Source: Campylobacterota bacterium (GTDB lineage Bacteria > Campylobacterota > Campylobacteria > Campylobacterales > Sulfurimonadaceae). From it: a stretch of DNA of 41,986 nucleotides. The notes beneath the pieces are model-generated. The model was not told the DNA's origin and searched no databases. It saw only the letters and a list, made by a program, of their open reading frames with translations. The DNA is taken from assembly GCA_023379705.1 (NCBI GenBank), contig JAMCPS010000095.1, positions 1-41,986 on the forward strand, read 5' to 3'. The translations under genes were made by a program, and so were the position numbers. Positions 16,723 to 40,384 of this stretch are shown here, one piece after another (position 1 is the first letter of the stretch; every line of letters starts with the position of its first letter).

Positions 16723-16803
16723 TGATATACAAATATAAAGGAGGGGCTCCGCCAAATCAATGGTTATCTTGTCACAAAATCAAATAATTAAAAGGAAAAT
16801 GTT

Positions 16804-17280: not shown

Positions 17281-17292
17281 GTAGTTAAAAAA

Positions 17293-17823
17293 ATGCCGCT
17301 GGTATTTGTATTTTTATCAATGATACTTGGTGTGGTTGCGTCTTTGCAGATGTCAACCATTACTAAAAATCGTTCAATTCATCTTTTATCGGGTGGCTAT
17401 ACATCGTCATCCAATACGCTTGTTAATGCGTATGAAATAAATTATAACGGGGCTGACAGTATTGACGATAAAAGAACAATGGCAAGAAATGCTGATACCG
17501 CAGTTGCAAAAGTTTGTCGCCAGCTAAGTTATGAAATGAAATTGGCCTATAACGCAGGCGATGCTGCTTGTATTAATTATAATCAATCGACCACTTTGTA
17601 TACATTCCTGGGAGCAGCTGGAACAACTGGAAGTATAGATAGTGTCTATGCCAACTCTACATCAACAACATTAAATTGTGCCGCACCAGCAGCTTATGGT
17701 CGCTATATCCTTTCTAGTGCCTTACCAGAAAAGTTTGTTACTGGCAAGGATATAACTTTTAATCTTATATCCATTGTTAATGGAAAATATGACCCGTGCG
17801 GGTTTAAAGAAATAACTTATTAG
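17293..17823 (+). CDS. membrane-anchored or exported pilus-cluster protein, unknown family
   Basis: The 176-residue protein begins with a hydrophobic stretch (Leu-Val-Phe-Val-Phe-Leu-Ser-Met-Ile-Leu) but lacks the Gly-Phe-Thr-x-x-Glu prepilin motif. The rest is Ser/Thr/Asn-rich and carries four cysteines, suggesting an exported domain. No convincing ribosome site precedes ATG 17293, 12 nt after pilS, so translation may be coupled. Its position suits an accessory pilus subunit. Confidence 0.5.
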   Translation: MPLVFVFLSMILGVVASLQMSTITKNRSIHLLSGGYTSSSNTLVNAYEINYNGADSIDDKRTMARNADTAVAKVCRQLSYEMKLAYNAGDAACINYNQSTTLYTFLGAAGTTGSIDSVYANSTSTTLNCAAPAAYGRYILSSALPEKFVTGKDITFNLISIVNGKYDPCGFKEITY

Positions 17824-17833
17824 GAATATTCAT

Positions 17834-19774: not shown

Positions 19775-19784
19775 GGAGTGGAAT

Positions 19785-21632
19785 ATGGTCAATAAAGATA
19801 ATAAGATGCAGATTTTAATGTTGTCGGTAGTCGCATCAGTGATATTAAATGGGTGTTCATCAAAAGAACCAGTGGTTGAAACTAAAAATACAAAGGTAGT
19901 AGAGATAAATAATACTAAGCCTGGGCTATCATTATCGGTATCTGAGATGAGTATCCGAAAGCTGATTAAATCAGTGTGTGATGCCAACTCTTTATCGTGT
20001 GATTATTCTTTTCAACCCTCCGACAGCTATACAGCAACATTCTCATATAATGGAAATTTAGAAGGATTGCTTTCTGTTATTAAAAGACAGACAGGTATTG
20101 AATACAAATTGATTGACGGCATGGTTGTTGTTGAAAATAAAGATGATATTACGCGGTATGATGATCCATTAAAAAGATCTGTTTGCGAAAAGCCAATAAC
20201 GGTCTCCTTTAAAAATATAAAGCTTGGTGATGCTTTTAAATACTTTTATGATGAATTTGGTTATTCCTTTGTTTTTGATACTCGTTATACCGATGTGGCA
20301 TCAACCATGCCGACCCAGCCATCATCAGGTTTTTCTGCTCAGCAGCCATCCATTATGCCTATTTTAGCAAGCACGGATGGTAAGACAGGAGAGCAGAAAA
20401 GATCATCAAAAACAGATAATATAGCTTTTTTTTATAATGGGTGTGATCAAAAAGAAGCTCTAAAATCATTTTTAAATAGTATAGACATGACTATGGTTGA
20501 AACCAGAGATAAAGAATTTAGAATAAGGGATTATGAAGTTGCTATTTTTGATAAATCCGCATACTTTAATTATTCTATGACTTCGGGCGGCTCTTCCGCT
20601 GGTGGTGCTACAGGGGCTGCGCCTGCTGGTGGTGCAGGGCAAGCAAATACAGGTGGGGCTGCGCCTGCTGGTGGTGCAGGGCAAGCAAATACAGGTGGGG
20701 CAACAAGTGGAGCTTCTACTTCAAGTACTACAACTGTTTCTGTGACGGAGAATCATCGTGAAGCGCTTGAAAGAGTTTTACAAAAATATCTTTCAGAAAA
20801 AGGGAAGTTGAATTTTTCCATGAGAGGATATATTATGGTGGAAGACAAACCATCATATGTGAAACGTATTCAAACCATAGTGAAAAAAGAGATAGAGAAA
20901 GAAGCGCCATTGGCGATTTCTATTAATATCGTTCGCGTTGATTTGAATGATAACTATAAGGCGGGAGTGGATTGGAATGCAGTATTCCAAAACGGTTTAT
21001 TTGGGCTTCGAAACCTTCGAGTGACATCATCATTAAGCAATATTGCATCTGGCGGCTTCTCTTTCGCAGGTGAATTTAAAGGGGCTGATCAAGTTCTATC
21101 TGTTCTGCAAGATTATGGAAACACTAAAATTGAACGTTCAAGCACTATTAATGCCCGAAGTGGATTTTTAGCTAATTATGAAGCCATCAGACCGGTGCCG
21201 TATTTAACAACAGCATCAACAATGGCTGGAACAACTGGAGCAACACAACTAGCTGTTACTCCTCTTTATGAACAAGAAGGTTTTATTGTTAATGTACTGC
21301 CAAATGTTGATCTTGATAATAAAACAGTTGACCTTGGAATCGATGTAACTGTAGCAGAGTATGTTGGAGATAAGGTCTTTAGCCTTGGCGACAATGGTAC
21401 TTTTACTTTACCGATTGTCCCAAAGGACAAAGGAAAATTTGCGGTACAAGCTAAGATTGGCGAAACTATTGTCTTAACCGGGTTCAAGATCAAGAAAGAC
21501 AGAAATGGCAAAAGAGGACTGCCTGGCTTGAGCCAACTACCAGGTGCTGGAGCATTGTTTGGTGCACAGGAGCAAGTAGATGAATCAAGCGAGATTCTGA
21601 TTATATTAAAAGTCGATCAGCTTAAAAAGTAA
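19785..21632 (+). CDS. pilus secretin lipoprotein (PilN-like)
   Basis: The 615-residue lipoprotein has a lipobox Ile-Leu-Asn-Gly-Cys (Cys24). Secretin N-domains with STN-like folds follow (about 45-260). A Gly/Ala-rich linker with a duplicated 14-residue unit comes next, then a C-terminal secretin domain with the family's Gly-Leu-Pro-Gly-Leu-Ser...Pro-Gly-Ala-Gly-Ala-Leu-Phe-Gly ending. It forms the outer-membrane gate for the pilus, as PilN does in IncI plasmids. AAGGAG lies 8 nt before the ATG. Confidence 0.87.
   Translation: MVNKDNKMQILMLSVVASVILNGCSSKEPVVETKNTKVVEINNTKPGLSLSVSEMSIRKLIKSVCDANSLSCDYSFQPSDSYTATFSYNGNLEGLLSVIKRQTGIEYKLIDGMVVVENKDDITRYDDPLKRSVCEKPITVSFKNIKLGDAFKYFYDEFGYSFVFDTRYTDVASTMPTQPSSGFSAQQPSIMPILASTDGKTGEQKRSSKTDNIAFFYNGCDQKEALKSFLNSIDMTMVETRDKEFRIRDYEVAIFDKSAYFNYSMTSGGSSAGGATGAAPAGGAGQANTGGAAPAGGAGQANTGGATSGASTSSTTTVSVTENHREALERVLQKYLSEKGKLNFSMRGYIMVEDKPSYVKRIQTIVKKEIEKEAPLAISINIVRVDLNDNYKAGVDWNAVFQNGLFGLRNLRVTSSLSNIASGGFSFAGEFKGADQVLSVLQDYGNTKIERSSTINARSGFLANYEAIRPVPYLTTASTMAGTTGATQLAVTPLYEQEGFIVNVLPNVDLDNKTVDLGIDVTVAEYVGDKVFSLGDNGTFTLPIVPKDKGKFAVQAKIGETIVLTGFKIKKDRNGKRGLPGLSQLPGAGALFGAQEQVDESSEILIILKVDQLKK
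20613..20696 (+). repeat. two exact 42-bp tandem repeats in the secretin linker
   Basis: Units 20613-20654 and 20655-20696 are identical and encode Gly-Ala-Ala-Pro-Ala-Gly-Gly-Ala-Gly-Gln-Ala-Asn-Thr-Gly twice. Because 42 is a multiple of 3, gain or loss of units changes linker length without breaking the frame. Confidence 0.92.
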
Positions 21633-21641
21633 GGATTGTAA

Positions 21642-22319
21642 ATGAGCACAGAAAACAAAAAGTCGATATCAAAAAAACAATTAGTCATTCTTGTTTTATT
21701 GTTTGTTTTGCTTTTATCACTAATTGGTTATATGCTAATGGATGCTGGATCTGATACACCTATTCAACAGGCCGATCAACCTGTTGAAACTGAAACTTTG
21801 CGACAATCAAATAATGTTCTTGAGAATTCTAACCCATCGGTTTTGGAAGGAAATGCAACAGAATTAACCAATAGCCAATATCTCGATAGTGATATTGATA
21901 AATATTTTATTGCCAAAGGTGCAAAAGATCAAATTGCTCAAAAGGCCGAAGCACAAAATACAAAAGTTTTGCCAAGGCTCCCAGCTGCAAACAATGGAGC
22001 AGTGGTTTCACTTCCAAATCTAACACCACCATCACAATTGCCAAGAGGAGGTGTTAGTATTGCTGGAATTAATTTGTCAGGTCCTGCCAATGTAATATCT
22101 GGTATGCCAACACAAATCTCTTTACCGCCAGCCCCACAAAATTATCAATATCTTGTAATTAATGGGATAGCCTGCAAGGATAATGGTTGTAGAGCTTCTA
22201 CATCATTAGGGCTTTTAACAAAAGGCAGCTCGATAGGTGGTGGCAATTTTGTTTCTGAAAAAATAGAATCTGTTTCAATGAATGGGATTAAAACAGATAA
22301 ACGTTTTATAAGCTATTAG
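21642..22319 (+). CDS. PilP-like pilus alignment protein
   Basis: The 225-residue protein has a short cytoplasmic N-terminus, one transmembrane helix (Val-Ile-Leu-Val-Leu-Leu-Phe-Val-Leu-Leu-Leu), a Pro/Asn-rich linker and a small C-terminal domain. That domain (Tyr-Leu-Val-Ile-Asn-Gly-Ile-Ala-Cys...Cys-Arg) has the look of PilP/GspC. PilP links the inner-membrane platform to the secretin. It lies directly after the secretin and before the PilO-like gene. Confidence 0.6.
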   Translation: MSTENKKSISKKQLVILVLLFVLLLSLIGYMLMDAGSDTPIQQADQPVETETLRQSNNVLENSNPSVLEGNATELTNSQYLDSDIDKYFIAKGAKDQIAQKAEAQNTKVLPRLPAANNGAVVSLPNLTPPSQLPRGGVSIAGINLSGPANVISGMPTQISLPPAPQNYQYLVINGIACKDNGCRASTSLGLLTKGSSIGGGNFVSEKIESVSMNGIKTDKRFISY

Positions 22320-22331
22320 AAAGAGGCTAAA

Positions 22332-23423
22332 ATGTATGTTGGTAGAGTAACAATTGATGATCTTTCTGATACAAAGACAACCTTAAAAGTAAAAGTAAAC
22401 AAAAAAATAGTTCGTGTAGCTATTTCGGCAGAAGACTCTGAAAATCTTACTTTGCTTGAGCAGTATTATTTATACGTTGTAGATTTATATGATAAGGGAG
22501 AGGGAAGGGGATTTAAGGTTCTTCCCTCGCTTTATGAAGAAGAAAATACACAAAACAAAAGAATACTTTTTATATTGAAGGCTTCTGATACTGAGGATAG
22601 TTATGATCTTTCAATTGACGAATCAAGTAATGATGAGCATTTTGATTTTATATTGGATGGTTTCTTTCAGGGTGAATATCATTATGAAGTACAGGATTCT
22701 GCAGAATCCTTATTAAAAAGATACGATCCAAAAGGAAATGGGAAAATAATTGCAATTATCGCTGTAACAATCAGTGTATTGCTGATCTCTTTGTATATTT
22801 GGTCTGTTTTTGAGGATATGAAAAGAGCTGCCGCTGAAGCCGCCGCTGAAGCCGAAAAAGTAAAGAAAGAACAAGAACAGGTTGTTGTGCCATTGAAGCC
22901 GGAAGAAATAAATGTTTTAAAAAGTATTGTTTCAAGAGAGCTTCTTGATCAGTTTAAAAAGGACGTTTTAAGAATCAAAGAAAATGATCGTCTTGATAGT
23001 CATGTTTCGATCCGATCTGTTACCACAAATTACGAAGTACAAAGTGATATTCTAAAGTTGAAAGGGGTTATTGGGTATGAATATGATTACCCAGTTAATG
23101 GGACAACTTTGGCATCTGAATTGGTTTATACAAACACAAAAGATTATCAGATCCAAAAATCAAGAAGTGAACTTTACTTAGGGAATGATAGCTCTCTGAC
23201 AGTTAGTTGTGTTAAATCAGCAATAGAAATGCCTGCAGATGAAAAAGTAGTTCTTGAAAGAAAAGCGGGCGTAATTAAGATCAAATATACAAAAATAAGA
23301 CCAGCAGATTTATTTTATAAATTTAGACCTTATATGGATGCGTGTCCAGTATATATTGATAATGCTGCCATTTCTGAGGGAAAATTTGATATACAGCTAA
23401 CACTCTATAAGGGAGATGAGTAA
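22332..23423 (+). CDS. PilO-like inner-membrane protein
   Basis: The 363-residue protein has a cytoplasmic N-terminal domain (about 1-135), one transmembrane helix (Ile-Ile-Ala-Ile-Ile-Ala-Val-Thr-Ile-Ser), an Ala/Glu-rich coiled coil and a periplasmic domain with two cysteines. This is the plan of IncI PilO and related alignment-complex proteins. The family call depends on architecture and on its place between PilP-like and minor prepilin genes. Confidence 0.55.
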   Translation: MYVGRVTIDDLSDTKTTLKVKVNKKIVRVAISAEDSENLTLLEQYYLYVVDLYDKGEGRGFKVLPSLYEEENTQNKRILFILKASDTEDSYDLSIDESSNDEHFDFILDGFFQGEYHYEVQDSAESLLKRYDPKGNGKIIAIIAVTISVLLISLYIWSVFEDMKRAAAEAAAEAEKVKKEQEQVVVPLKPEEINVLKSIVSRELLDQFKKDVLRIKENDRLDSHVSIRSVTTNYEVQSDILKLKGVIGYEYDYPVNGTTLASELVYTNTKDYQIQKSRSELYLGNDSSLTVSCVKSAIEMPADEKVVLERKAGVIKIKYTKIRPADLFYKFRPYMDACPVYIDNAAISEGKFDIQLTLYKGDE

Positions 23424-24610
23424 TGACCTATAGTAAAAAAGCGTTTACTCTCTTAGAAATGGCATTTTCACTTGCTATTATGGCGCTGCTATCATTAGCC
23501 CTATATCGCTGGAGTGATCGAGTAGCAGACGATACCATGGTTAAACAGGAATATCTAAATGCATACCGCTTTGAAGCGGGTATGAAAGAGAGTATGATAG
23601 CGATATTGGAGACGTTTGAAGGTACATGCGGAGATATCCCATCCGATGTAACGTCATCAATGGCATGGGGATGGGGGTCAAGTAGCTGCGCTAATACGTC
23701 GCCATTGCCTAGACGATCTGGGAGTGAGCTTGTATATGATATTAACTTTGGCTCCTTGAGTGCTGGGATGCAAGCATCATTAAAAAATAAAATTATCTCA
23801 GCATATGCCCCTATGTGCCGCCATTCATCAGATAATGGCACATCATTAACATTATTTTGTGGCCCATCTTTTACAGGCTTTCAGTATGATACAACTTCTG
23901 GCATAGTTAACCAGTATCATACTCCAGGCGCCGCCTTTAATATGCTTGATACCCCAACTCCAATCTTGACTATAACTCGTAGCTACACGCAAGGACCAGC
24001 AACAGAAACAAAAACGTATCGTCTTAATTTGTCAGATGTTTGGCAACAGAGACTTGCATATAGTACAATGAAAATGGAAGCAGTAGCCAGGATGCTAAAG
24101 AACCAATATAATATGAAATTGGCTAAAGAGGTCTCAAATACATCTCCTAGCGGATTGAACTCAGTAGATGATGAATTAATTCCATGGCATTGGACTGCTT
24201 TTGGGGATAATTCTGCAACTGCAGCAACTACTGTTTGCTCAAAAAATATAGGGACAGGTGTATGCGATAATCTGAATACTAATAATATATGGCGATCCAC
24301 GACAGGTGACGCTTTATTGTGGAGACGTTTTATTACAGGACTTGCTTCAGGCGATTATAAATATACCGTTGATGGATTTGGCAATCCTTTAAGGCTGTAC
24401 CCTATTATCACACAGCGTAATGGAGCAACTGATCTTTCAACTTGTTCCGTTACTGCACCAACTACACCAAGAGAACCATACGTAATTTCTGCAACCATTA
24501 AACCACCATATGGTTCGGTTATTTATAATGCAGTATCTAGTGGCGGAGTGAATTGTGCAAACCTATCCACTCAGGCTCCATCGTCTTGTCGGTACACTGT
24601 AATATATTAA
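23423..24610 (+). CDS. large minor prepilin
   Basis: The 395-residue prepilin has a 7-residue leader ending Ser-Lys-Lys-Ala. Cleavage would precede Phe-Thr-Leu-Leu-Glu with Glu5, followed by a typical hydrophobic stalk. The long C-terminal region is Ser/Thr/Asn-rich with at least ten cysteines. In R64 the shufflon-bearing PilV is such a large minor pilin. Here this gene has a normal fixed C-terminus and no sfx-like site, so the variable function has moved to the separate gene at 32875-33429. It overlaps the previous stop by 1 nt. Confidence 0.78.
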   Translation: MTYSKKAFTLLEMAFSLAIMALLSLALYRWSDRVADDTMVKQEYLNAYRFEAGMKESMIAILETFEGTCGDIPSDVTSSMAWGWGSSSCANTSPLPRRSGSELVYDINFGSLSAGMQASLKNKIISAYAPMCRHSSDNGTSLTLFCGPSFTGFQYDTTSGIVNQYHTPGAAFNMLDTPTPILTITRSYTQGPATETKTYRLNLSDVWQQRLAYSTMKMEAVARMLKNQYNMKLAKEVSNTSPSGLNSVDDELIPWHWTAFGDNSATAATTVCSKNIGTGVCDNLNTNNIWRSTTGDALLWRRFITGLASGDYKYTVDGFGNPLRLYPIITQRNGATDLSTCSVTAPTTPREPYVISATIKPPYGSVIYNAVSSGGVNCANLSTQAPSSCRYTVIY

Positions 24611-24629
24611 ATTTAACAAAGGAATAAAC

Positions 24630-25946
24630 ATGAAAACAAAACTGTTTAAGGGTATAAATGCTGTTGACACTAAAAAGATTTTTATGGAATCTTTGACGCC
24701 TAATCAGCAATGGTATGGAAAATTATTATATGGAATTAGAGAAGGCTGGATAAAAAATGGGTGTAACATTACTGAGATACTTATTCAGGAAATGCAACCT
24801 ATTTCCATAGCTGTTTTGAAAGCTTATTTGCCATGTCCGGTTAGATTTGATGATGATGAATTTCTACCAACAAAAGGTCAAATTCTAGGGGTTGTAGAAC
24901 GTTTTACTGAGATTTCCCCTGGCAATAATGGTGAAGCGCTGATAGGAAATTCAATAGATTTTGCTTTTCAAGTATTTGGGCTTGGGATTTTCCGTAATAA
25001 CTTTTCCTTTTCTAATAATGGCTGTACATTGTCTATTCGATATCTACCACATGAAGTCCCAAAACTTGAAGATGTAGGGTATCCAGATATATATCGCAAT
25101 TATTTAAAAAATATAATTGAAAAGGTTGCAATTAAATCTCCTCCTCCTGTAGGTGAATATTACATACAATGTGGAGAGGGAGTTAACCCTATCGATGTTC
25201 AAAAACCGGTTATTACGACAATAAATACTCAAGTACCTCGATCTGGTGGGGGATTGATTCTACATATTGGGCCAACCGGGTCTGGAAAAACAACTGCAAT
25301 GGCTGCTGAAGTGGGGCATATTGCAGATCAGACAGCAGCATTGATATTAACATATGAAGATCCAATTGAATTTTCTTTCGTTGGGACGACTTCGCCTGTT
25401 TCTTCATTTGAGCTTGGGCGTGATATTAAAGAAAATGAGGATTTTACTCTTCCAGAAATGGTAAGACGGCACTCATTACGAAAAAATCCTGCAGTGATTA
25501 TGTTTGGAGAGATGAGAACATCCGAACAAATGCGGATGGTAGTTGATATGGCGAATTCTGGGCACTGGGTACTTGCATCAATGCATGGGCAGTCTGTATT
25601 GGAGGCAGTTGGTGTTTTAGCATCCATATATAAAGATGAACCATATGTCCTTGCTAATTCATTAAAAGCTGCAGTAGCACATAGGCTTGCCACGAATCAG
25701 CAAGGAAATGTTATCCCTCTTTTTGAGATATTTATACCAGATGATGTGAGAACTACAGCTCTTGCAAAAGGGAACCTGGATGAAATAAAAAGAACATTTA
25801 AAGAAGGATTAGGGGATCAGTCTGTTACATTTGAACAGTCGATTGAATTCCTAGTGCGTAATAATAAAATTACTATGATGGAAAAGGATCGTATACGAAA
25901 AATGGCATTAGGAAACATTAAAACAGTAGGAGAAAAAAATGTCTGA
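24630..25946 (+). CDS. PilT/DotB/TraJ-family secretion ATPase
   Basis: The 438-residue ATPase has a Walker A Gly-Pro-Thr-Gly-Ser-Gly-Lys-Thr-Thr near 214-222, Glu-Asp-Pro-Ile-Glu-Phe near 242-247, a Walker B region with Gly-Glu-Met-Arg and a His box Ala-Ser-Met-His. It could be the retraction ATPase of the pilus (PilT) or the DotB/TraJ ATPase of a type IVB secretion system, which belongs to the same family. Given that the other secretion genes look Dot/IncI-like, DotB/TraJ is at least as likely. AAGGA lies 8 nt before the ATG. Confidence 0.8.
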   Translation: MKTKLFKGINAVDTKKIFMESLTPNQQWYGKLLYGIREGWIKNGCNITEILIQEMQPISIAVLKAYLPCPVRFDDDEFLPTKGQILGVVERFTEISPGNNGEALIGNSIDFAFQVFGLGIFRNNFSFSNNGCTLSIRYLPHEVPKLEDVGYPDIYRNYLKNIIEKVAIKSPPPVGEYYIQCGEGVNPIDVQKPVITTINTQVPRSGGGLILHIGPTGSGKTTAMAAEVGHIADQTAALILTYEDPIEFSFVGTTSPVSSFELGRDIKENEDFTLPEMVRRHSLRKNPAVIMFGEMRTSEQMRMVVDMANSGHWVLASMHGQSVLEAVGVLASIYKDEPYVLANSLKAAVAHRLATNQQGNVIPLFEIFIPDDVRTTALAKGNLDEIKRTFKEGLGDQSVTFEQSIEFLVRNNKITMMEKDRIRKMALGNIKTVGEKNV

Positions 25947-26223
25947 AAATAACAATAGCTATTTAAATGAAAAAACAAAAAAAACTTTCGAATTACCACT
26001 AAAAATTTTATGCAGATGGCTGAAAATGTTAAAAGATAAAACAGGAAATAAGGACATAGAACATGCTCTTAGAACGATTCAGTTTGTTGCTATAACCGAT
26101 GAAGAAAGAGAAATTGTATCAACTATTCGTCAGCTATATATTGCAGAAATGAATGGTGATTTAAACCCACCGCCATCCATGAGAGAAATTTACGAGTTCA
26201 TTGACGATTATTTTAAAGAATGA
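25939..26223 (+). CDS. 94-residue soluble helical protein, unknown
   Basis: Not recognised. The protein is charged, predicted mostly helical and without signal peptide or membrane segment. It overlaps the ATPase gene by 8 nt and the following lytic transglycosylase gene by an ATGA, so all three are translated as one unit. A small adaptor for the secretion ATPase is possible but unsupported. Confidence 0.5.
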   Translation: MSENNNSYLNEKTKKTFELPLKILCRWLKMLKDKTGNKDIEHALRTIQFVAITDEEREIVSTIRQLYIAEMNGDLNPPPSMREIYEFIDDYFKE

Positions 26224-27207: not shown

Positions 27208-28356
27208 TTGGATTTGTTATGGTTTATAGCAAGTTGCAATTCTCACTATTCAAGTATAGGCGATCTTAAAACAGTATATAAGCTAAAAGAAATATATATT
27301 CTCCCAACGGACGAACAAATTCGTGTCAGCGTTGGGAATGATGATATTGGTTTCATGGCACCTTATTATCCAGAAAAAAAAATCAAACCACTTTTTGTTA
27401 TTAAAGAGCTTGACAATGCAAACGGTATTTTAACTAGGCAAGAAAAGCTCTACGGCGTTAGCGAAGAAAAAGCTATTTATGATCGTCTATACTTGAATAG
27501 TGAAACGCCTAAAATATCATTTAGGGATATTGGCGGAGCTGAACGGTTAAAGAGTTGGGCCGGAGAAGTACGTACTTCGTTAGCCAAGGGTAAAACAGTA
27601 AAAGGGGCATTTCTTATTGGTCCTACCGGATCCGGTAAGACACGTTTCGTAGAGGCATTTGCAGGTCAGTTTCAAAGAACGCTTCTGATGCTTAATCTCC
27701 CTATGATTATGGAAATGGATAATCCCATCGAGCGTCTATGGACCACTTTTTCCTATCTTGAAAAAATGTCTACCGCAGGAAAAAAGTTTGTTCTGCTTGC
27801 CGATGAATTTGAAAAAATGGTTGACGTAAAAGAGGGAAGTCCTATTCAAAAACAATTCCTCGGTCAGATGTTAACTATTCTAAATGATATGAATGAACCT
27901 AATGGTTTTAAGATCGATGCGATTATTTTTGCAACAGCCAATAATCTATCGGTTATCCTAGACAACAACCCTGAATTATTGCGTCATGGTCGTTGGTCGG
28001 CTAAATTCTTTTTGAATTACCCTTTAAAAAAAGAAGCAATTGGAATCTATAGATTATACGCTCAAATTTACCAAGTTAGACAGTTTCAAAGCGATGATGC
28101 ACTGTTCGAACTTTATTCAAAAGTAGATACTATTTATAAAAATGACAATAAACAAGCGCACAGATCAGTATATTCACCAGCAGAGATTAATGCGCTAATG
28201 GAACGCTTCAGCACAAAAGCTGATGCTTCTGGCGGGGTATTGTCCCCATTACAAATAGACGAGATCATCAAGTTGGTGATACCTATTCAAAAAACTGCCT
28301 CAGTGGGAGTTGGGCAGCAATTGAAAGATGCGGAGCTTGGATTCGAAGAATGTTGA
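27208..28356 (+). CDS. AAA+ ATPase
   Basis: The 382-residue protein has an N-terminal domain of about 105 residues. The AAA module begins Phe-Arg-Asp-Ile-Gly-Gly-Ala, with Walker A Gly-Pro-Thr-Gly-Ser-Gly-Lys-Thr near 138-145, Walker B Phe-Val-Leu-Leu-Ala-Asp-Glu-Phe near 194-201 and a sensor-like Ala-Thr-Ala-Asn-Asn. This resembles classical AAA proteins (FtsH/Cdc48 type) that remodel or unfold proteins. The start is uncertain: TTG 27208 or TTG 27214, both after GAGAGGG; no ATG is well placed. Its end lies 25 nt before the preferred recombinase start. Confidence 0.72.
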   Translation: MDLLWFIASCNSHYSSIGDLKTVYKLKEIYILPTDEQIRVSVGNDDIGFMAPYYPEKKIKPLFVIKELDNANGILTRQEKLYGVSEEKAIYDRLYLNSETPKISFRDIGGAERLKSWAGEVRTSLAKGKTVKGAFLIGPTGSGKTRFVEAFAGQFQRTLLMLNLPMIMEMDNPIERLWTTFSYLEKMSTAGKKFVLLADEFEKMVDVKEGSPIQKQFLGQMLTILNDMNEPNGFKIDAIIFATANNLSVILDNNPELLRHGRWSAKFFLNYPLKKEAIGIYRLYAQIYQVRQFQSDDALFELYSKVDTIYKNDNKQAHRSVYSPAEINALMERFSTKADASGGVLSPLQIDEIIKLVIPIQKTASVGVGQQLKDAELGFEEC

Positions 28357-28381
28357 TTTTTGCGGAGAATCGATAACTGCA

Positions 28382-29533
28382 ATGATCAATAATGTTTGCG
28401 AGATATCTCCTTTATCAGAAGCATTGTCGCAGTACCTTCGGCTGGTTACACCGTTAAAGAAGGGTAAGAATCAGGAGTTTTATCGAGCAAAACCGCTGAT
28501 TGCATTTTTTCAAGATACACCCTTGAAAGAATTAAATTCTTTACAGGTTGCTGCGTATCGTGATAAACGATTAGCAGACCCTCACCCTAAAAATCAAAAA
28601 AAGACACTTTCGGGCAGTACTGTAAAACTAGAGATGATGTTATTGTCTCATCTTTTTACGGTTGCCGCTTCAGAGTGGGGAATAGAGATTGACAATCCTG
28701 TAACGAAAGTGAGAAAACCAAAGCCTCCTCCCGGAAGAAGTAGGAGACTCACCAAAAGGGAGAATACGCTCTTATTGCGAAAAGCGTATTCTCATCCAAA
28801 TGAGGAGCTTTATCCGGTTATTGTTATAGCTCTTGAAACGGCGATGAGACAAGGGGAGATTATTGGTCTAAGATGGGAACATATTAGTTGGAAAAAAAGA
28901 GTTGCACATCTTCCGTATACTAAGAATGGTACTATGCGGGATGTCCCTTTGTCTAATAATGCAATTTATGTTTTAAAACATATACTAAAACCAAAAAATG
29001 AGGGGAAGGTGTTTCAATATTCCCAGTCCGGAATTAAAAGTACATGGAGATGTTTGGTTAAATCTGCTGGTATTGAAGATTTCCATTTTCATGATCTGAG
29101 ACATGAAGCGATATCGAGACTTTTTGAAAAAGGGTTAGATATGCTGGAAGTCTCTACAATATCCGGGCATAAGAGTTTGTCGATGCTCAAGCGGTATACC
29201 CATTTACAAGCGTATAAGCTTGTATCAAAACTGGATCCTAAGAAAAAACGTAAAAAAGCGAATGCCCCTCAAGAAGTGAGAGACTTTATGATTGCCTATC
29301 CGGCAATCATGGAAAAAAGAACAAAAAAGTGTACTATCGATTTTTATGATTTTGTTGGGTTGAGGATCACTGCAAGAAATTGTGATGATGCTATGGCCGA
29401 GGCAAAAAATCAACTACTTAGAAAGATTGTAATGTTTTTACATAATAATGAAAAACCTCCAAAGCCAACCTTGAATTTTGAAGAGATTGAAATAGGCAAG
29501 CGTGATTCGATTAGTATGATATCCCCTCTGTAA
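28382..29533 (+). CDS. rci: shufflon-specific tyrosine recombinase (Rci-like)
   Basis: The 383-residue tyrosine recombinase has Arg156 (Met-Arg-Gln-Gly-Glu), His237-x-x-Arg240 (His-Asp-Leu-Arg-His), His263 (Ser-Gly-His-Lys) and nucleophile Tyr272. An N-terminal SAM-like core-binding domain is present (Ala-Leu-Ser-Gln-Tyr-Leu...Gln-Glu-Phe-Tyr-Arg). About 111 residues follow the tyrosine. In R64 Rci such a C-terminal extension controls sfx recognition and restricts recombination to inverted sites. The gene ends 32 bp before the first sfx-like repeat, as rci does in R64. ATG 28382 is preferred; an in-frame ATG at 28328 would overlap the ATPase gene. Confidence 0.88.
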   Translation: MINNVCEISPLSEALSQYLRLVTPLKKGKNQEFYRAKPLIAFFQDTPLKELNSLQVAAYRDKRLADPHPKNQKKTLSGSTVKLEMMLLSHLFTVAASEWGIEIDNPVTKVRKPKPPPGRSRRLTKRENTLLLRKAYSHPNEELYPVIVIALETAMRQGEIIGLRWEHISWKKRVAHLPYTKNGTMRDVPLSNNAIYVLKHILKPKNEGKVFQYSQSGIKSTWRCLVKSAGIEDFHFHDLRHEAISRLFEKGLDMLEVSTISGHKSLSMLKRYTHLQAYKLVSKLDPKKKRKKANAPQEVRDFMIAYPAIMEKRTKKCTIDFYDFVGLRITARNCDDAMAEAKNQLLRKIVMFLHNNEKPPKPTLNFEEIEIGKRDSISMISPL

Positions 29534-29565: not shown

Positions 29566-29584
29566 TTGCCAATCCGGTATATGG
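29566..29584 (+). repeat. sfx-like site 1
   Basis: TTGCCAATCCGGTATATGG; leftmost site, 32 bp after the recombinase gene. The variable triplet encodes Ile. Confidence 0.93.
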
Positions 29585-29940
29585 GTGGCAAGTGGGGGAG
29601 GTGGTGCGGGAACCGTCATAGAACCAGCTTGCTCCTCTGAAGCAAGCTGGGGAGCGTGTACGCCACCGTCTTGTCCTGTAGGATGGACTGATGCGGGTAC
29701 AATCTCATTTCAAATGACTGCTGGCAATGTTGCGGGGGTGTGGGGAAAATATTCTCGGTATTGTTCAACAACTACAACCTATAAATTGATTGAACCTGCC
29801 TGTTCCAATGCGGGTGGTTTCGGCTGCGTTCCCCCAGTCTGTCCTATAGGATGGACTGATTTGAATATTATTTCAATATATGGATCGGCTGCAAGTAACG
29901 GAGGGGTATTTCGTAAAGATTATCGGCATTGCATTAAATA
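29566..29940 (+). CDS. silent shufflon cassette 1 (two CPxGW modules)
   Basis: The frame Cys-Gln-Ser-Gly-Ile-Trp continues through Gly-rich residues. Two similar modules follow, each with Pro-Ala-Cys-Ser, then Cys-Pro-Val/Ile-Gly-Trp-Thr-Asp and a closing Tyr-Cys or His-Cys; the cassette ends Cys-Ile-Lys. It has no start codon context or ribosome site of its own and can be expressed only after inversion joins it to the constant region. The internal duplication and paired cysteines suggest a disulfide-bonded adhesin tip. Confidence 0.82.
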
Positions 29941-29945
29941 GCCGA

Positions 29946-29964
29946 TTGCCAATCCGGTGTTTGG
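29946..29964 (+). repeat. sfx-like site 2
   Basis: TTGCCAATCCGGTGTTTGG; 5 nt after the stop of cassette 1. Confidence 0.93.
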
Positions 29965-30273
29965 GCAGCGGTTGGCGGGGGAAGAAATTTAGCAATACTC
30001 TATCTTAGAAGGAGTGTCCTGGCTGGCGATCCGGCTTTTTGCCCAGTTTCATGGAACCAAATCTATTATGCAAATGTTCAAAATGTAGCTCAGAATAATT
30101 ATGAAAGGACATGTGTCGCACCAAGCAGTTCATGTTCAACTCTGTATATGACAAGAACTGTTTATAGTGGTATTCCGGATCTTTGCCCAATTGGTTGGCT
30201 GGAAGCTGACATGGCGAATGTCCAAACAGGATCTTATAACAACTTTGTACGTAGCTGCATCAAATGTAATTAG
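29946..30273 (+). CDS. silent shufflon cassette 2 (two CPxGW modules)
   Basis: Reading from the site: Cys-Gln-Ser-Gly-Val-Trp, then modules with Phe-Cys-Pro-Val-Ser-Trp and Leu-Cys-Pro-Ile-Gly-Trp, ending Arg-Ser-Cys-Ile-Lys-Cys-Asn and TAG. It contains no plausible initiation site, so it is missed when only start-to-stop frames are listed. Same module type as cassettes 1, 9 and 12. Confidence 0.82.
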
Positions 30274-30277
30274 CCGA

Positions 30278-30296
30278 TTGCCAATCCGGTGTGTGG
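30278..30296 (+). repeat. sfx-like site 3
   Basis: TTGCCAATCCGGTGTGTGG. Confidence 0.93.
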
Positions 30297-30608
30297 AAGA
30301 AAGCTGGAGGTAGTGGGGCTATAACAACAGGGGTAATTGCCGATTATGCGGGGAGGCAAACGATTGGACTATTAAGTGGCTCTACACCATGTATTCAACC
30401 AGAGACAAATTGTAGGGACTATGGAGTGGATTCTGTAGGTAATTTGTCATATCGAAATGGAACTGGAGTCACTGTAGTATCTGGAACACTCGGCACTTGT
30501 TGGTGGCAAACGGGGACGGTAGCACGATGCAGTGATGGCTCCAATTTATATTATATTTCACATGTAGGTATTATGCTAAACAGCGTGATGTATTATTGGG
30601 CTAACTAG
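30278..30608 (+). CDS. silent shufflon cassette 3
   Basis: Opens Cys-Gln-Ser-Gly-Val-Trp-Lys-Lys-Ala-Gly-Gly-Ser-Gly and ends Tyr-Tyr-Trp-Ala-Asn. It has four cysteines after the site (Pro-Cys-Ile, Asn-Cys-Arg, Thr-Cys-Trp-Trp, Arg-Cys-Ser) but no CPxGW module, so it encodes a different fold from cassettes 1 and 2. Confidence 0.8.
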
Positions 30609-30612
30609 CCGA

Positions 30613-30631
30613 TTGCCAATCCGGTGTGTGG
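30613..30631 (+). repeat. sfx-like site 4
   Basis: TTGCCAATCCGGTGTGTGG; identical to site 3. Confidence 0.93.
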
Positions 30632-30970
30632 ACTTCGGTTGGTGGAGGCGGAGCGTTGGGGTTAAGTCTTGATGATGCAGTGAATAAAGAAACTTTTGGG
30701 GAGACCGCTGGGACTCCATACCCATGCGACACCAACTGTAATCTTAATTCTATAAAATTTAGAGTAATAAAATCTGGAAGTGATTTTATTTTACAGGGGG
30801 CAAGACTATTCGAAGTAGGTACATGGTCGAATTTTACTAACGCTTGTATTGCTCCAATTAACACTTCAAATCTTTGTACTGGTAACGGGTCTATTACGTG
30901 GAGTAATTTTATAATTAATATCGTAGGTGTTAGCTTTTCTACCTCCTACACTAGCCCTTGGCGCCCTTAA
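30613..30970 (+). CDS. silent shufflon cassette 4
   Basis: Opens Cys-Gln-Ser-Gly-Val-Trp-Thr-Ser-Val-Gly-Gly-Gly-Gly and ends Ser-Pro-Trp-Arg-Pro. It contains Pro-Cys-Asp-Thr-Asn-Cys, similar to a motif in cassette 3 (Pro-Cys-Ile...Asn-Cys), so cassettes 3 and 4 may share a fold. The stop abuts the next site. Confidence 0.8.
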
Positions 30971-30989
30971 TTGCCAATCCGGAGTGTGG
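30971..30989 (+). repeat. sfx-like site 5
   Basis: TTGCCAATCCGGAGTGTGG; position 13 is A instead of T, which keeps the Gly codon. Confidence 0.92.
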
Positions 30990-31265
30990 AGTATTCCATT
31001 AACAAGTGGATCGCCAATTGATACAAACTCAGGACTTTTAAACAATGCTTGTTACTATACGAATTCAATATATGTTGCTTTTAAAAGAATAGGAGGAATT
31101 GTATATGGGAGATATTACAGGCCAAATACTGGAATTGATTCCGGATGGCAATCTTTAGCTTTTATCCCGGAAACAGGGTTTGTTGTTAAACAAAATGCAG
31201 GATCTTTTTTTGGGTTACAAATAATATCAACTTCAGCATGGGGATGTATGGCTTACGTTCCATAG
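30971..31265 (+). CDS. silent shufflon cassette 5
   Basis: Opens Cys-Gln-Ser-Gly-Val-Trp-Ser-Ile-Pro-Leu and ends Gly-Cys-Met-Ala-Tyr-Val-Pro. It lacks the usual Gly-Gly stretch after the site. Aromatic-rich (Tyr-Gly-Arg-Tyr-Tyr) with two cysteines beyond the site; the stop touches the next site. Confidence 0.8.
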
Positions 31266-31284
31266 TTGCCAATCCGGTAGTTGG
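31266..31284 (+). repeat. sfx-like site 6
   Basis: TTGCCAATCCGGTAGTTGG. Confidence 0.93.
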
Positions 31285-31539
31285 AAGTCTGTATCCGGGG
31301 GAAATTCTTGCTGGCAAACATTATCTACTGGATTTGTTGATTTACCTTTAAATTGCTTCGGCTCAACAGCAGCGATTGTTGCTAATAATTCTATTTGTGT
31401 TGGGCAGAATTCAGCAACATTTAGAACAACAGGGAGAATAACCAACGGCTCACTTGTTTTAAGATATGATAACGGTGGAGCCACAGCAAGTTCTCTTGTT
31501 GGCGCAATGGCTCCAGCAAACTTCTATCCATGCCCATAG
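31266..31539 (+). CDS. silent shufflon cassette 6 (shortest complete)
   Basis: Opens Cys-Gln-Ser-Gly-Ser-Trp-Lys-Ser-Val-Ser-Gly-Gly and ends Phe-Tyr-Pro-Cys-Pro. About 91 codons. The first 11 residues are nearly the same as cassette 7, pointing to duplication or conversion at the site end. Confidence 0.8.
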
Positions 31540-31558
31540 TTGCCAATCCGGTACGTGG
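31540..31558 (+). repeat. sfx-like site 7
   Basis: TTGCCAATCCGGTACGTGG. Confidence 0.93.
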
Positions 31559-31888
31559 AAGTCTGTATCTGGCGGGGGCAGTTGCCCGACAGGAAGCACC
31601 TTAATAAGTTCCATACAACTTTGTGTTGATTCAATGGGAGTGAAATTTGATGTTACTTTTATAGCGGCTGGTGAATATTGTGCGAATAAGGGATTAAAAA
31701 TACCGAGCATGGGGCAACTCGATAGTATGAACTCGATACAAGCATCAATTCCAGGTTGGGTTGGAGGTCAGCTTTGGATTGATGCTCTGCCTGCACCTAC
31801 ACAAGGGATGGTGTCTTGCAATCTTCCAAATTATTGTGGTATGTCTATTTATACGAGTGCAGGCAATTCCGTATTTTGTGTAAAATAG
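31540..31888 (+). CDS. silent shufflon cassette 7
   Basis: Opens Cys-Gln-Ser-Gly-Thr-Trp-Lys-Ser-Val-Ser-Gly-Gly-Gly and ends Ser-Val-Phe-Cys-Val-Lys. The middle (Tyr-Cys-Ala-Asn-Lys-Gly-Leu-Lys-Ile-Pro-Ser-Met-Gly-Gln-Leu) and the end (Cys...Gly-Met...Phe-Cys) recall C-type-lectin-like folds seen at the tips of phage and pilus adhesins. That is a tentative reading. Confidence 0.78.
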
Positions 31889-31892
31889 CCAA

Positions 31893-31911
31893 TTGCCAAT
31901 CCGGAACTTGG
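31893..31911 (+). repeat. sfx-like site 8
   Basis: TTGCCAATCCGGAACTTGG; the last rightward site. Confidence 0.92.
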
Positions 31912-32253
31912 GGGAAGCCTACGTCAGGCGCAGGCGCGGTATCCAATGCACAGTGGTCTTCCACTTATGATGGTTTGTGTACTGTAAAAATTTATGCGGG
32001 TTCGAGTCAATGGAATCAGCTTTGCTATGACGGTGCGACTAACCATATCGGTGTGTATCTTTGGTATCCAACAATTACCACTCTTTATTGGTCAAAGCCC
32101 CTTGGCTTTAATTGTGCTTCTGCAAGTAGTAATGGACGGTGTGATGATGTTGGTGGATCAGGAGGGGTAGGAAATGCATATTTAATTCCTACCCCTACAG
32201 GGATTAAAGACAATTGGCCAAATAGCTCTACACCAATCTATCCATGGCAGTAA
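31893..32253 (+). CDS. silent shufflon cassette 8
   Basis: Opens Cys-Gln-Ser-Gly-Thr-Trp-Gly-Lys-Pro and ends Pro-Ile-Tyr-Pro-Trp-Gln. Clearly related to cassette 10 on the opposite strand (Trp-Ser-Ser-x-Tyr-x-Gly, Ile-Lys/Val-Tyr, Phe-Asn-Cys-Ala). After the stop the sequence reads GCCGGTGTAATC, which may be a collapsed site, and then meets the tail of cassette 9. Confidence 0.8.
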
Positions 32254-32264
32254 GCCGGTGTAAT

Positions 32265-32388
32265 CTAGTTACATTTATAACAACTTGTCCATGTATTCGA
32301 CCATGCTCCGTAGCTTCCCACGTAATGCTTTAAAAAACCTACCGGACAAGTTGGACCGGATTCATAATTCCTTCTAACAAAGGTAACT
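32265..32388 (-). pseudogene. remnant of a shufflon cassette (cassette 9 tail)
   Basis: On the minus strand a frame without a site or start reads Arg-Arg-Asn-Tyr-Glu-Ser-Gly-Pro-Thr-Cys-Pro-Val-Gly-Phe and ends Ser-Cys-Tyr-Lys-Cys-Asn and TAG. It is the last CPxGW module of a cassette like 2 and 12 whose first part and sfx have been lost. It directly follows the stop of cassette 10. Confidence 0.7.
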
Positions 32389-32771
32389 AATTTCCCCAAG
32401 GGTATTGTAAATATAATTTTGACACACCATTATATACCGTTACCCCTGCGGGGGTAACTTGTGCCGAAACATCATTTCCCCATATACTTACTCCAGCTTG
32501 TTCACAATACCCTTTTATTAAAGCTCCAGTAGATGTAGCTTCAAGATTTGCACAATTAAACTGAGGAGCAGAAGTACCAATTAGAGTTCCATTAGCTAAA
32601 TATTGATAGGAGTTAATTGTATTTGTTATTCCTTCATAGTAAAGTCTAATGTACGATGAAGGGTCTTTATAAACCTTAATACTCCATTTCCCACCATAGG
32701 CTGAAGACCAGTCTGAATATTTTATTGTGCCGCCGCTTCCCCCAACCGCTGTCCACAAACCGGATTGGCAA
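32387..32771 (-). CDS. silent shufflon cassette 10 (leftward)
   Basis: From the site at 32771 the minus strand reads Cys-Gln-Ser-Gly-Leu-Trp-Thr-Ala-Val-Gly-Gly-Ser-Gly and ends Leu-Gln-Tyr-Pro-Trp-Gly-Asn. It is homologous to cassette 8, with which it sits tail to tail, as in the two-sided segments of R64. It is in the same orientation as the constant gene but separated from it by cassette 12, so at least two inversions are needed to express it. Confidence 0.8.
32753..32771 (-). repeat. sfx-like site 9 (leftward)
   Basis: Minus strand TTGCCAATCCGGTTTGTGG. Confidence 0.93.
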
Positions 32772-32785
32772 TATGCTCCAAGGAA

Positions 32786-32868
32786 TTACCATTGCTGTGT
32801 GACACTATAGATGGGCATTCCTGCGCAAACTATTGTGTAACCGAATCCGGCTGCTGGGTTATTGTCAC
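32786..32868 (-). pseudogene. remnant of a shufflon cassette (cassette 11 tail)
   Basis: A short minus-strand frame (Ser-Asp-Asn-Asn-Pro-Ala-Ala-Gly-Phe-Gly-Tyr...Pro-Ile-Tyr-Ser-Val-Thr-Gln-Gln-Trp) ends in TAA 14 nt before site 9. It has no site of its own and lies just after the stop of cassette 12. The ending resembles that of cassette 8, so it looks like the tail of a lost cassette. Confidence 0.6.
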
Positions 32869-32874
32869 TTCAAT

Positions 32875-33429
32875 TCATTGGCACTTGTAACAACTCCTAG
32901 TATTATTCGCCCCATTACCTCCAAGCTCGCGTCGATAGTCTGCTTGACTCCAACCACTAGGGCACAACGCTGGCATAGGATCAACTTCATATGAGGAGAG
33001 ATAAATAACAGAGCAGGTTTTACTGACTGGTGGTAAACACATCCTAGTATTATCCGCTCCGGCACCACTGATTACACGTCGATAGTCTGTTTGACTCCAA
33101 CCACTAGGGCACAATGCTGGCATAGGATCAGGTTCATATGCTTGGAGGTATAACGCAGTTATGTTTGCTCCACCACCCAGTGCGTTCCAGCTACCGGATT
33201 GGCAAATTAGTTGCGAACTATGGTCAGAAGTGACCGCAACGATATCTGTTGTGCTATTACAAGCAGCACCGGAAACAGCAATCGGAATTACATATGGGTT
33301 AATAACGGTTGCACTATCTCTTTGTGTTCCAAGAACGGCCATAGATGGATTTTTACTGACCGAATTGATCGTGTCTGCAGATACGATTGAAAAAATGGCA
33401 AATAAAGCCGAAAGAATCAATTTTTTCAT
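32875..33429 (-). CDS. shufflon-encoded secreted protein, current isoform (constant part plus cassette 12)
   Basis: The 184-residue product has a constant region of about 80 residues ending at the sfx-encoded Cys76-Gln-Ser-Gly-Ser-Trp81. Cassette 12 follows, with two tandem CPxGW modules and an ending Ser-Cys-Tyr-Lys-Cys-Gln. The N-terminus is a Sec signal peptide (Phe-Ser-Ile-Val-Ser-Ala then Asp) and carries no Gly-Phe-Thr-x-x-Glu prepilin site. The two modules come from a 64-bp direct repeat at 147-bp spacing (32930-32993, 33077-33140). GGAGC precedes the ATG. It is likely a surface or pilus-tip adhesin whose recipient or surface specificity is switched by inversion, as PilV does in R64; that role is inferred. 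Confidence 0.85.
   Translation of the reverse strand: MKKLILSALFAIFSIVSADTINSVSKNPSMAVLGTQRDSATVINPYVIPIAVSGAACNSTTDIVAVTSDHSSQLICQSGSWNALGGGANITALYLQAYEPDPMPALCPSGWSQTDYRRVISGAGADNTRMCLPPVSKTCSVIYLSSYEVDPMPALCPSGWSQADYRRELGGNGANNTRSCYKCQ
33187..33205 (-). repeat. sfx-like site 10, at the constant/variable junction
   Basis: Minus strand TTGCCAATCCGGTAGCTGG. This is the fixed exchange point: whatever follows it becomes the expressed C-terminus. Confidence 0.93.
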
Positions 33430-33445: not shown

Positions 33446-33979
33446 TTATTGACAAACTTGATTGTATGTCAAAGTCATGTAGGCCGTTGAGTTTGTAATG
33501 GCAACGTTAGTGAAGTATGTGTAAGTATTTGAGTATTGGTTAGGAGTGTATGTGATCTGACCACCTGAGTAGGCAACGTTATCATACATCTCACCACCGA
33601 TCGCTGCACCGCATAGCCGCCAGTTTGTTCCAGCATCCTCATATCGGATATCATAGATAAAAGGAAACATAGCCTTTTGATTGGAAACAGTACCGTCTGG
33701 TTTTGTCAAAACCAGTTCACTTACGTTCGCATACAAAACAGTAGTTGCGGCACTGCAGCTGATCTTTGGAATTGTGAGACATCGATAGTTTCGGTTGGTC
33801 CCGCCGATATTCCATTGTGTAGTGCTTAATGTTGAAGTCTGAGAAATCACCCCATAACCTTGCGACTTAACGGATTGAACCATGTTGTCGTAATCATATG
33901 GGATGAGGTATTCAGCACCAAACGCCATTGGTGAAATTGCCAAAATAGCAATCAATAACTTTTTGAGTCGTGCCGGCAT
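33446..33979 (-). CDS. secreted protein in operon with the shufflon gene
   Basis: The 177-residue exported protein has a signal peptide ending Met-Ala-Phe-Gly-Ala. The mature part is Thr/Asn/Tyr-rich and beta-like with four cysteines, ending Asn-Gln-Val-Cys-Gln. AAAGGGGG lies 5 nt before the ATG. It precedes the shufflon gene by 16 nt, so both share a promoter. It could be the partner or carrier that attaches the variable protein to the pilus or outer membrane, since the variable protein lacks its own anchor. Family not recognised. Confidence 0.6.
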   Translation of the reverse strand: MPARLKKLLIAILAISPMAFGAEYLIPYDYDNMVQSVKSQGYGVISQTSTLSTTQWNIGGTNRNYRCLTIPKISCSAATTVLYANVSELVLTKPDGTVSNQKAMFPFIYDIRYEDAGTNWRLCGAAIGGEMYDNVAYSGGQITYTPNQYSNTYTYFTNVAITNSTAYMTLTYNQVCQ

Positions 33980-39694: not shown

Positions 39695-40384
39695 ATGAAG
39701 AAAAACGATTTTGTTATAACTGAAGATTTTATAGTGTTTGATTCCGGGCTCACATCTGAAGAGATGAAGATGATCATGCTTCTTTTGAATCGATCAAATA
39801 AAAAAGGGGTTGTAGCTGTTAAAGAAATTGAGATTCTTTCATTGACCTCTTGTGTCAGCCGTCATGAGGTGATCGTGCTCATAGATACAATCATTGGTAA
39901 AACGATCAAAGAATCCGATAAAGCATATGTGTGGTTTACGGAGTACGCATTTGATCAAGACGGGGTAATAACTATTCAGATAAACCCGACTATTTTAAAA
40001 TTTATACAAGAAGGGCCTGCAAGTATTCAAATCAATAGTGTAGATGGTTTAAAAAATCCTCGATCACTTCAACTCTACAGATTACTTAGAAAACATAAAA
40101 CGATTACTTTTAAAGTTGATGATCTCAAGAAGCATTTAAAAGTTGAAGAGGGCTATGGGCTGTATGCAGATTTTAAACGTAAGATCTTGATTCCAACAGT
40201 AAATGAAGTAAGTGAGAAAACGGAGGTAAGTGTTTTGTATCATGAGGTTAAAGAAAAGAGGAAAGTAATCGAGATACTGTTTGAAATTAGACCTAAAGCG
40301 GGAAGACAACTGACATTAGAGGATATAAGTAGATCTGTCATAGATACAAGCGTTTCTTTCGAAAGAAAAAAGTACAATAACTAA
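39695..40384 (+). CDS. plasmid replication initiator, Rep_3 family
   Basis: The 229-residue protein matches the Rep_3/RepB winged-helix plan. An N-terminal wing (Leu-Thr-Ser-Glu-Glu-Met-Lys-Met-Ile-Met-Leu-Leu-Leu) is followed by Ser-Leu-Gln-Leu-Tyr-Arg-Leu-Leu-Arg, then Tyr-Ala-Asp-Phe-Lys-Arg-Lys-Ile-Leu-Ile-Pro and Val-Ser-Glu-Lys-Thr. Such initiators bind iterons and open the origin. GGAG lies 6 nt before the ATG. The iteron-like repeats and an AT-rich tract are close by. Confidence 0.82.
   Translation: MKKNDFVITEDFIVFDSGLTSEEMKMIMLLLNRSNKKGVVAVKEIEILSLTSCVSRHEVIVLIDTIIGKTIKESDKAYVWFTEYAFDQDGVITIQINPTILKFIQEGPASIQINSVDGLKNPRSLQLYRLLRKHKTITFKVDDLKKHLKVEEGYGLYADFKRKILIPTVNEVSEKTEVSVLYHEVKEKRKVIEILFEIRPKAGRQLTLEDISRSVIDTSVSFERKKYNN

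Follow-up and report, generated by a model that had tools for sequence, protein, structure and literature searches.

What does an array of ten inversion sites vary when it lies outside the group of bacteria in which such arrays are best known? The DNA analyzed here (the window) is the whole stretch of 41,986 nucleotides of contig JAMCPS010000095.1, assembly GCA_023379705.1. It holds a tyrosine recombinase gene followed by an array of 19-base-pair (bp) sites, which a preliminary description had taken for a complete ten-cassette shufflon on a probable Campylobacterota plasmid. Shufflons are known from other bacteria, where they usually vary a pilus subunit. By its anatomy (sites, reading frames, recombinase family and identity) this locus is an Rci/sfx-type DNA-inversion shufflon, as had been proposed.

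Based on the pattern TTGCCAATCCGGWNNNTGG and allowing up to three mismatches, ten sites were identified in the window. All ten were exact, while 100 shuffles gave a mean of 0.50 matches and at most three. Eight sites are on the + strand and two on the - strand, and the spacer TTGCCAA is identical in all ten. The array therefore has the multiple, asymmetric 19-bp sites of a shufflon, in both orientations and with a common spacer and right arm. No match to the pattern was found elsewhere in the window's own genome (G000). The right-half pattern AATCCGGNNNNTGG gave 11 matches in the window against a chance mean of 0.09. The degenerate eleventh site, together with a site-less cassette remnant inside the array, was absent from the preliminary description; the two suggest past cassette loss and replacement. 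The recombinase and the sites, the latter located by pattern search, are listed below, with lengths in amino acids (aa) and expectation values as E.

28328..29533, + strand: Rci-type tyrosine recombinase, 401 aa (PF00589, E 2.2e-30), with an internal ATG near residue 19 as a possible later start
29566..29584, + strand: sfx site 1
29946..29964, + strand: sfx site 2
30278..30296, + strand: sfx site 3
30613..30631, + strand: sfx site 4
30971..30989, + strand: sfx site 5
31266..31284, + strand: sfx site 6
31540..31558, + strand: sfx site 7
31893..31911, + strand: sfx site 8
32753..32771, - strand: sfx site 9
32839..32857, + strand: degenerate sfx-like site, right half intact at 32844-32857 and left part altered
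33187..33205, - strand: sfx site 10, which joins the constant gene to the currently expressed cassette

The recombinase gene ends at 29533, 32 bases from site 1, the spacing given in the preliminary description. Its product is 45-52% identical, C-terminal extension included, to seven other recombinases, R64 Rci among them. R174, H255..R258, H281 and Y290, which we take to be the catalytic residues, are conserved in all eight aligned recombinases. The locus has in this respect what a shufflon calls for, an adjoining tyrosine recombinase with the conserved tetrad residues and an Rci-type C-terminal extension. The tetrad and the C-terminal domain are also the marks that were checked in shufflon invertases, according to passages of a PubMed Central (PMC) article (PMC11852207). 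A tree was constructed from 39 of 62 gathered recombinases, fragments and most of the distant integrases being dropped by hand. The window recombinase groups in it with that of pPAC1.3a and four other sequences (support 90/89), apart from the clades containing R64 and most Pseudomonas arrays.

Each of the ten sites reads Cys-Gln-Ser-Gly-x-Trp in frame and opens its own C-terminus with its own stop codon (10/10 open, 90-127 aa). When the cassettes were base-shuffled, between 0 and 7 per 2000 stayed open for each of them, and the other two frames of the real cassettes close 3-30 aa past the site; as in shufflons, the alternative C-termini follow their sites in a single frame. These results bear out the preliminary claims of eight rightward and two leftward sites with the hexapeptide in frame and ten complete C-termini. 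The cassettes of the rightward stack are packed head to tail, with a stop codon 0 or 4 bases ahead of the next site. The one tail-to-tail pair is that of cassettes 8 and 9, which share the sole double-headed segment. Cassettes 10, 2 and 1 form one family and cassettes 8 and 9 another. Compared without their first eight residues to 134 other cassettes, they showed no strong relative (best E 0.003, in a small set); none of the ten had a Pfam match above the curated cut-off, and matches to PHROG were weak (best E 0.0095). The order below is that of one assembled arrangement on one contig, and another arrangement may be commoner in the population.

29567..29941, + strand: cassette 1, 124 aa
29947..30273, + strand: cassette 2, 108 aa, 41% identical to cassette 10
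30279..30608, + strand: cassette 3, 109 aa
30614..30970, + strand: cassette 4, 118 aa
30972..31265, + strand: cassette 5, 97 aa
31267..31539, + strand: cassette 6, 90 aa
31541..31888, + strand: cassette 7, 115 aa
31894..32253, + strand: cassette 8, 119 aa
32265..32390, - strand: site-less remnant of a C-terminus like those of cassettes 2 and 10 (E 4.6e-5 to cassette 2 in a database of the ten cassettes)
32387..32770, - strand: cassette 9, 127 aa, 32% identical to cassette 8
32875..33204, - strand: cassette 10, 109 aa, fused to the constant gene at present

Any rightward site could pair with any leftward one, and the recombinase would invert the DNA that lies between them. With each inversion, two inward-facing cassette stacks would exchange their inner ends, and one constant start could be joined in this way to any of the ten alternative C-termini. 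In a label-only search with inversions as the only moves, the array stayed inward-facing, with 725,760 arrangements and all ten cassettes expressible. Recombination between direct sites is reportedly inhibited, to go by the title of a 2006 paper by Gyohda et al. The recombinase gene and the constant gene, which starts at 33429 on the opposite strand, both lie outside the array, and inversion at the sites therefore leaves both in place. That sites facing each other recombine with inversion of the DNA between them is described in the introduction of PMC9045228.

The constant gene determines what kind of protein is varied.

33205..33429, - strand: constant segment of 75 codons, made up of a Sec-like signal peptide (by eye) followed by some 57 residues of linker, with AAAGGAG ahead of the ATG

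Its first 18 residues resemble a Sec signal peptide (by eye). The open reading frame (ORF) had no match in Pfam or NCBIfam and no prepilin match there. With the Shufflon_N family (PF04917), R64 PilV scored 621 bits and the window ORF gave nothing. The possibility that the constant gene is a prepilin PilV was considered and rejected on its length, leader and lack of prepilin or Shufflon_N match. The product predicted from the sequence is a secreted non-pilin protein of small size (about 165-200 aa).

A type IV pilus (T4P) operon is encoded on the same contig, as it is in PilV shufflons.

15748..26223, + strand: T4P cluster of F-type membrane protein, pilin, GspE/PilB-like ATPase, secretin (MshL/PilN-like), large minor prepilin, PilT-like ATPase and small conserved protein
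23423-24610, + strand: the large minor prepilin, 395 aa (PF07963)
33446..33979, - strand: 177-aa protein with a Sec-like signal (by eye), directly upstream of the shuffled gene in the same likely operon

The first gene of the cluster presumably encodes the F-type membrane protein, judging from its place and a match in related contigs. In a structure comparison aimed at a trimeric minor pilin like CofB or TcpB, the five best matches (E 0.012-0.057, N-terminal profile parts only) were four entries named as pilins and one 'Uncharacterized protein'. A search with this prepilin of 228 genomes of the family gave 18 matches at E 0.001, of which four covered most of its length (own genome, G438, G506 and G422). 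The pilus cluster is common to the contigs G438:C265 (79.6 kb, covered in full), G506:C361 and G422:C164. No shufflon site was found in these three, and a looser pattern had one match, on the G422 contig. A homologue of the 177-aa protein lies in the pilus clusters of G438 and G506, behind the small gene that follows the PilT-like ATPase; the G422 contig gave no homologue, and the clusters of G438 and G506 hold no homologue of the shuffled gene. In the window the 177-aa gene lies beyond the array, on the strand opposite to the pilus cluster. By inspection this protein has a Tyr at its presumed mature start, unlike the shuffled protein. G438:C265 belongs to another genus of the same family and carries a distant VirB4 beside its related pilus cluster, again without a shufflon site.

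The pilus assembly ATPase (17834-19774) matches an MshE-related domain (NF053729) that binds cyclic di-GMP (c-di-GMP), at 38 bits, exactly at the cut-off. Since the contig also encodes an EAL-domain protein (35098-35850), the pilus may be under c-di-GMP control. An EAL gene was also observed near Rci in the Chromobacterium plasmid L160.

The contig is probably a plasmid, with a host in the Campylobacterota, as the preliminary description held; two genes carry this assignment.

3959..6295, + strand: VirB4-like ATPase of a type IV secretion system (T4SS) (TIGR00929, E 3.6e-11, well under the cut-off score)
39695..40384, + strand: Rep3 replication initiator (PF21205, E 3.1e-13; PF01051, E 2.6e-9)

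The phylum was inferred because all 14 relatives of VirB4 in the plasmid collection are from Campylobacterota (12 Campylobacter, 1 Helicobacter and 1 Caminibacter). In the genomes of 120 relatives, VirB4 had 11 matches at E 0.001, five over most of its length (own genome included; that in G210 has an internal stop) and six over a short ATPase stretch. The species is less sure than the phylum, because G000 is fragmented (183 contigs) with an estimated contamination of 7.89%. Also encoded on the contig are an Mrr-type restriction endonuclease-like gene (36110-37006) and a Fic-domain gene (2460-3194). Among 397 genomes of the phylum, own genome included, three gave matches to the site pattern, ten of them in the window's own genome and a single one in each of two others, taken as chance. 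Full-length Rci was found only in the own genome among the 228 of the family; three more passed E 1e-20, with partial matches of 29-31%. These searches turned up no second shufflon of this kind in the phylum, and no paper treating Campylobacterota and shufflons together was found in the open-licence PMC literature.

With a probability of about 0.68, the locus is read here as an inversion switch on a probable Campylobacterota plasmid that varies a small secreted protein, probably a pilus-linked mating adhesin. The product would be displayed or exported with the plasmid's own T4P and would recognise the surfaces of different mating partners, comparable to PilV in R64 and TP114. The sequence itself establishes the sites, the frames, the recombinase, the leader-like start, the pilus cluster and the plasmid initiator; inversion at this locus, export, the link to the pilus, adhesion and the role in mating are what we infer. 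The adhesin is suggested by the T4P context and the neighbouring gene, by the precedent of TcpF and CofJ, and by TP114, in which the range of recipients in broth depends on the alternative C-terminus according to passages of PMC9045228.

Several observations weigh against this reading. A scan of 20 window proteins from outside the cassettes gave no relaxase. An early aromatic residue in the mature N-terminus of TcpF and CofJ binds the minor pilin (passages of PMC9565799), and the shuffled protein has none in its first 27 residues, its first aromatic residue standing at about position 28, counted from the presumed cleavage site (by inspection). Comparison of the 177-aa protein with the Pseudomonas partner protein gave hhalign probabilities of 9% and 1%, which makes their parallel positional only. 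A profile of 22 necks ranked the window ORF third of 869 with an E of 0.58, and homology of the linker is undetectable; given no significant result in this test against 22 other linkers, the start may have been exchanged independently in the window. Finally, the recombinases nearest on the tree (L159, L166, L167, L168 and L174) do not adjoin site arrays in the stretches examined. Those of L166 and L167 lie near tandem repeats resembling tRNA genes, and that of L159 (pPAC1.3a) is separated by about 9 kb and by other genes from a pair of sites that its plasmid carries; the L168 stretch, which ends 139 bases past the recombinase match, is uninformative on arrays. The pairing of the window recombinase with these sites accordingly rests on adjacency and homology.

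A secreted surface protein might also be varied for ends other than partner choice, such as escape from pilus phages, kin or exclusion recognition, or surface attachment. A non-pilin product whose cassettes have such weak family matches would suit this, and the conjugative ability of the plasmid is only putative. The presence of T4SS-type and T4P genes on the same contig nevertheless argues for mating, as does a layout parallel to that of plasmids whose shufflon alters the recipient range (passages of PMC9045228), and we consider these other ends unlikely, if worth keeping in view. If the array were frozen or decaying, with an inactive recombinase, the locus would make one secreted protein. 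The degenerate site and the orphan cassette tail could be read as decay, and the nearest recombinases on the tree do not stand beside arrays in the stretches examined, but ten identical spacers, ten open cassettes where shuffling leaves so few, and a recombinase that retains every residue conserved in its aligned relatives make a dead array improbable.

It is more improbable still that this is an ordinary PilV shufflon of the R64 type, in which the short constant gene just looks like the start and a prepilin with PilV function is the real adhesin. The locus does resemble R64 in its site, its recombinase and its pilus surroundings, and a minor prepilin of 395 aa is encoded on the contig. The frame that runs into site 10, however, begins at an ATG 75 codons upstream, with AAAGGAG ahead of it, and the next upstream gene ends at 33446. 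Shufflon_N separates R64 PilV from the window ORF, and the 395-aa prepilin lies about 9 kb away on the other strand, with homologues in related contigs that lack the site. An artefact of assembly or binning, by which arrangements or cassette sets of several strains in a mixed population were united or a contig foreign to the host was included, is very improbable: the fragmentation and estimated contamination of G000 and the absence of a terminal overlap proving a circle would allow it, but contigs from the same phylum or family hold the matches to VirB4 and the pilus proteins, and the ten cassettes are all different and each intact.

Short constant starts are not confined to the window. Nine plasmid records of Pseudomonas and Stutzerimonas have a short Sec-like start (by eye): P. 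koreensis p2, P. syringae pMG4_1215, P. aeruginosa pPALO553, pNY5530-NR1, pPAC1.3a and pF023, Pseudomonas sp. GXZC, Stutzerimonas frequens XN05-1 and P. mendocina pPME5. They were chosen from matches to two such starts and Rci and are not an even sample. In all nine the constant gene is 'hypothetical' or unlisted in the (incomplete) PLSDB gene table. The non-pilin product is a recurrent but unlabelled variant, and no description of a non-pilin shufflon was met in the small part of the open-licence PMC literature that was covered. The array of pNY5530-NR1 (L364:7896-15200), with 24 sites (3 + and 21 -), is the largest in this analysis and has a short Sec-like constant gene whose sole label is 'hypothetical'. 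In pF023 (L368:7917-8543) the constant gene's own site is disrupted, and the array may be disconnected from the gene.

Long prepilin-like constants were found in P. putida pTTS12, in pSE5369-VIM and in the Chromobacterium plasmid L160 (long constant only). Constants were sought in 37 loci, five of them viral. Thirteen genome loci have at least two sites; 11 of these have a long prepilin-like constant region, and L177 and L182 have none in reach. Some sites in the central region of pTTS12 and pSE5369 (L162, L163) lack the TGG end and open only 6 aa, and are perhaps 'blank' cards. Two loci carry labels from outside the Pseudomonadota, with contamination suspected in both: L188, labelled Chryseobacterium sp. 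18061 (Bacteroidota), is one of the 11 and has two sites and a long prepilin-like constant, and L179, labelled Alistipes, is a recombinase locus without sites.

On the recombinase tree the short and prepilin types interleave, pPALO553 (short) grouping with pTTS12 and pSE5369 (prepilin) at 99/97. Read most simply, the shuffled gene has had its start replaced on more than one occasion. Tentatively, and at somewhat less than even odds, a second, overlooked kind of shufflon may be proposed, a Sec-exported non-pilin mini-adhesin on a plasmid pilus, which would have arisen more than once when the same module of site and cassettes came to lie behind new export leaders in plasmids of Pseudomonadota and Campylobacterota. 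If this is true, plasmids would carry detachable adhesin decks of up to 24 cards. The way in which a conjugative pilus might present a non-pilin adhesin becomes testable, and the unlabelled constant genes of the nine records point to overlooked variable proteins.

Of the known systems, R64 is the one named in the preliminary description. The site was said to differ from R64 sfx at the first base only, and it does: GTGCCAATCCGG occurs in all seven R64 sites. R64 Rci is 45% identical to the window's, and in both cases alternative C-termini lie beside a T4P operon. The comparison drawn in the preliminary description consequently stands for site and recombinase and fails for the constant gene, which in R64 and TP114 (IncI1, IncI2) is a prepilin of about 361 residues (PF04917) and here a short leader. 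The seven sites of the R64 record are of mixed orientation, whereas the window array is inward-facing. R64 has four segments with seven partial ORFs (passages of PMC5430464), and TP114 has eight cassettes, to its authors' knowledge the first characterized shufflon above seven (passages of PMC9045228). The repertoire of the window, claimed to be larger, does exceed these two, but P. koreensis p2 (17 sites) and pNY5530-NR1 surpass it; the sequence records with more sites have 13, 17 and 24. The host is probably outside the Enterobacterales, as had been stated, but the core is no rarity there: TTGCCAATCCGG occurs also in Pseudomonas, Polynucleobacter and Pusillimonas, and this T-variant core is common outside the Enterobacterales. 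Every TTGCCAATCCGG array examined that has both orientations (L158, L162-L165, L364-L368, L173, L176 and L187) is inward-facing.

Another close parallel is plasmid p2 of Pseudomonas koreensis P19E3 (CP027479), which has the identical core in 17 of 17 sites, all inward, an Rci 52% identical to the window's, a short Sec-like constant start and CQSGxW cassettes. It differs in its number of sites, in belonging to the Gammaproteobacteria, in a constant start without detectable homology to the window's, and in having no pilus genes annotated in a 19-kb stretch, where the window has a pilus cluster. According to passages of PMC6158609, long and short reads together gave two major arrangements without a difference in abundance; the 19-bp repeats are all inward, and two repeat positions were without rearrangement. 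The words pilV, rci and invertase do not occur in the main text of that paper. By analogy, this rearrangement is the nearest experimental support for inversion at the window.

In pPALO553, pPAC1.3a and pPME5 (L164, L365 and L369; 5, 2 and 1 sites in the stretches examined, that of pPME5 ending with the record) the short Sec-like constant gene ends a T4P operon. The shuffled gene there directly follows a secreted-looking protein of 167-168 aa, comparable to the window's 177-aa protein, and lies on the strand of the pilus operon, whereas the window's lies on the opposite one. We know of no shuffling in TcpF or CofJ proteins. In the pairs TcpF/TcpB and CofJ/CofB a Sec-exported non-pilin is carried by a T4b pilus with the large minor pilin at its tip (passages of PMC9565799). 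The window extends the inversion switch to a probable Campylobacterota plasmid. The variable module would seem to be portable, standing behind a long prepilin in R64-like plasmids and behind a short export leader both here and in plasmids of Pseudomonas.

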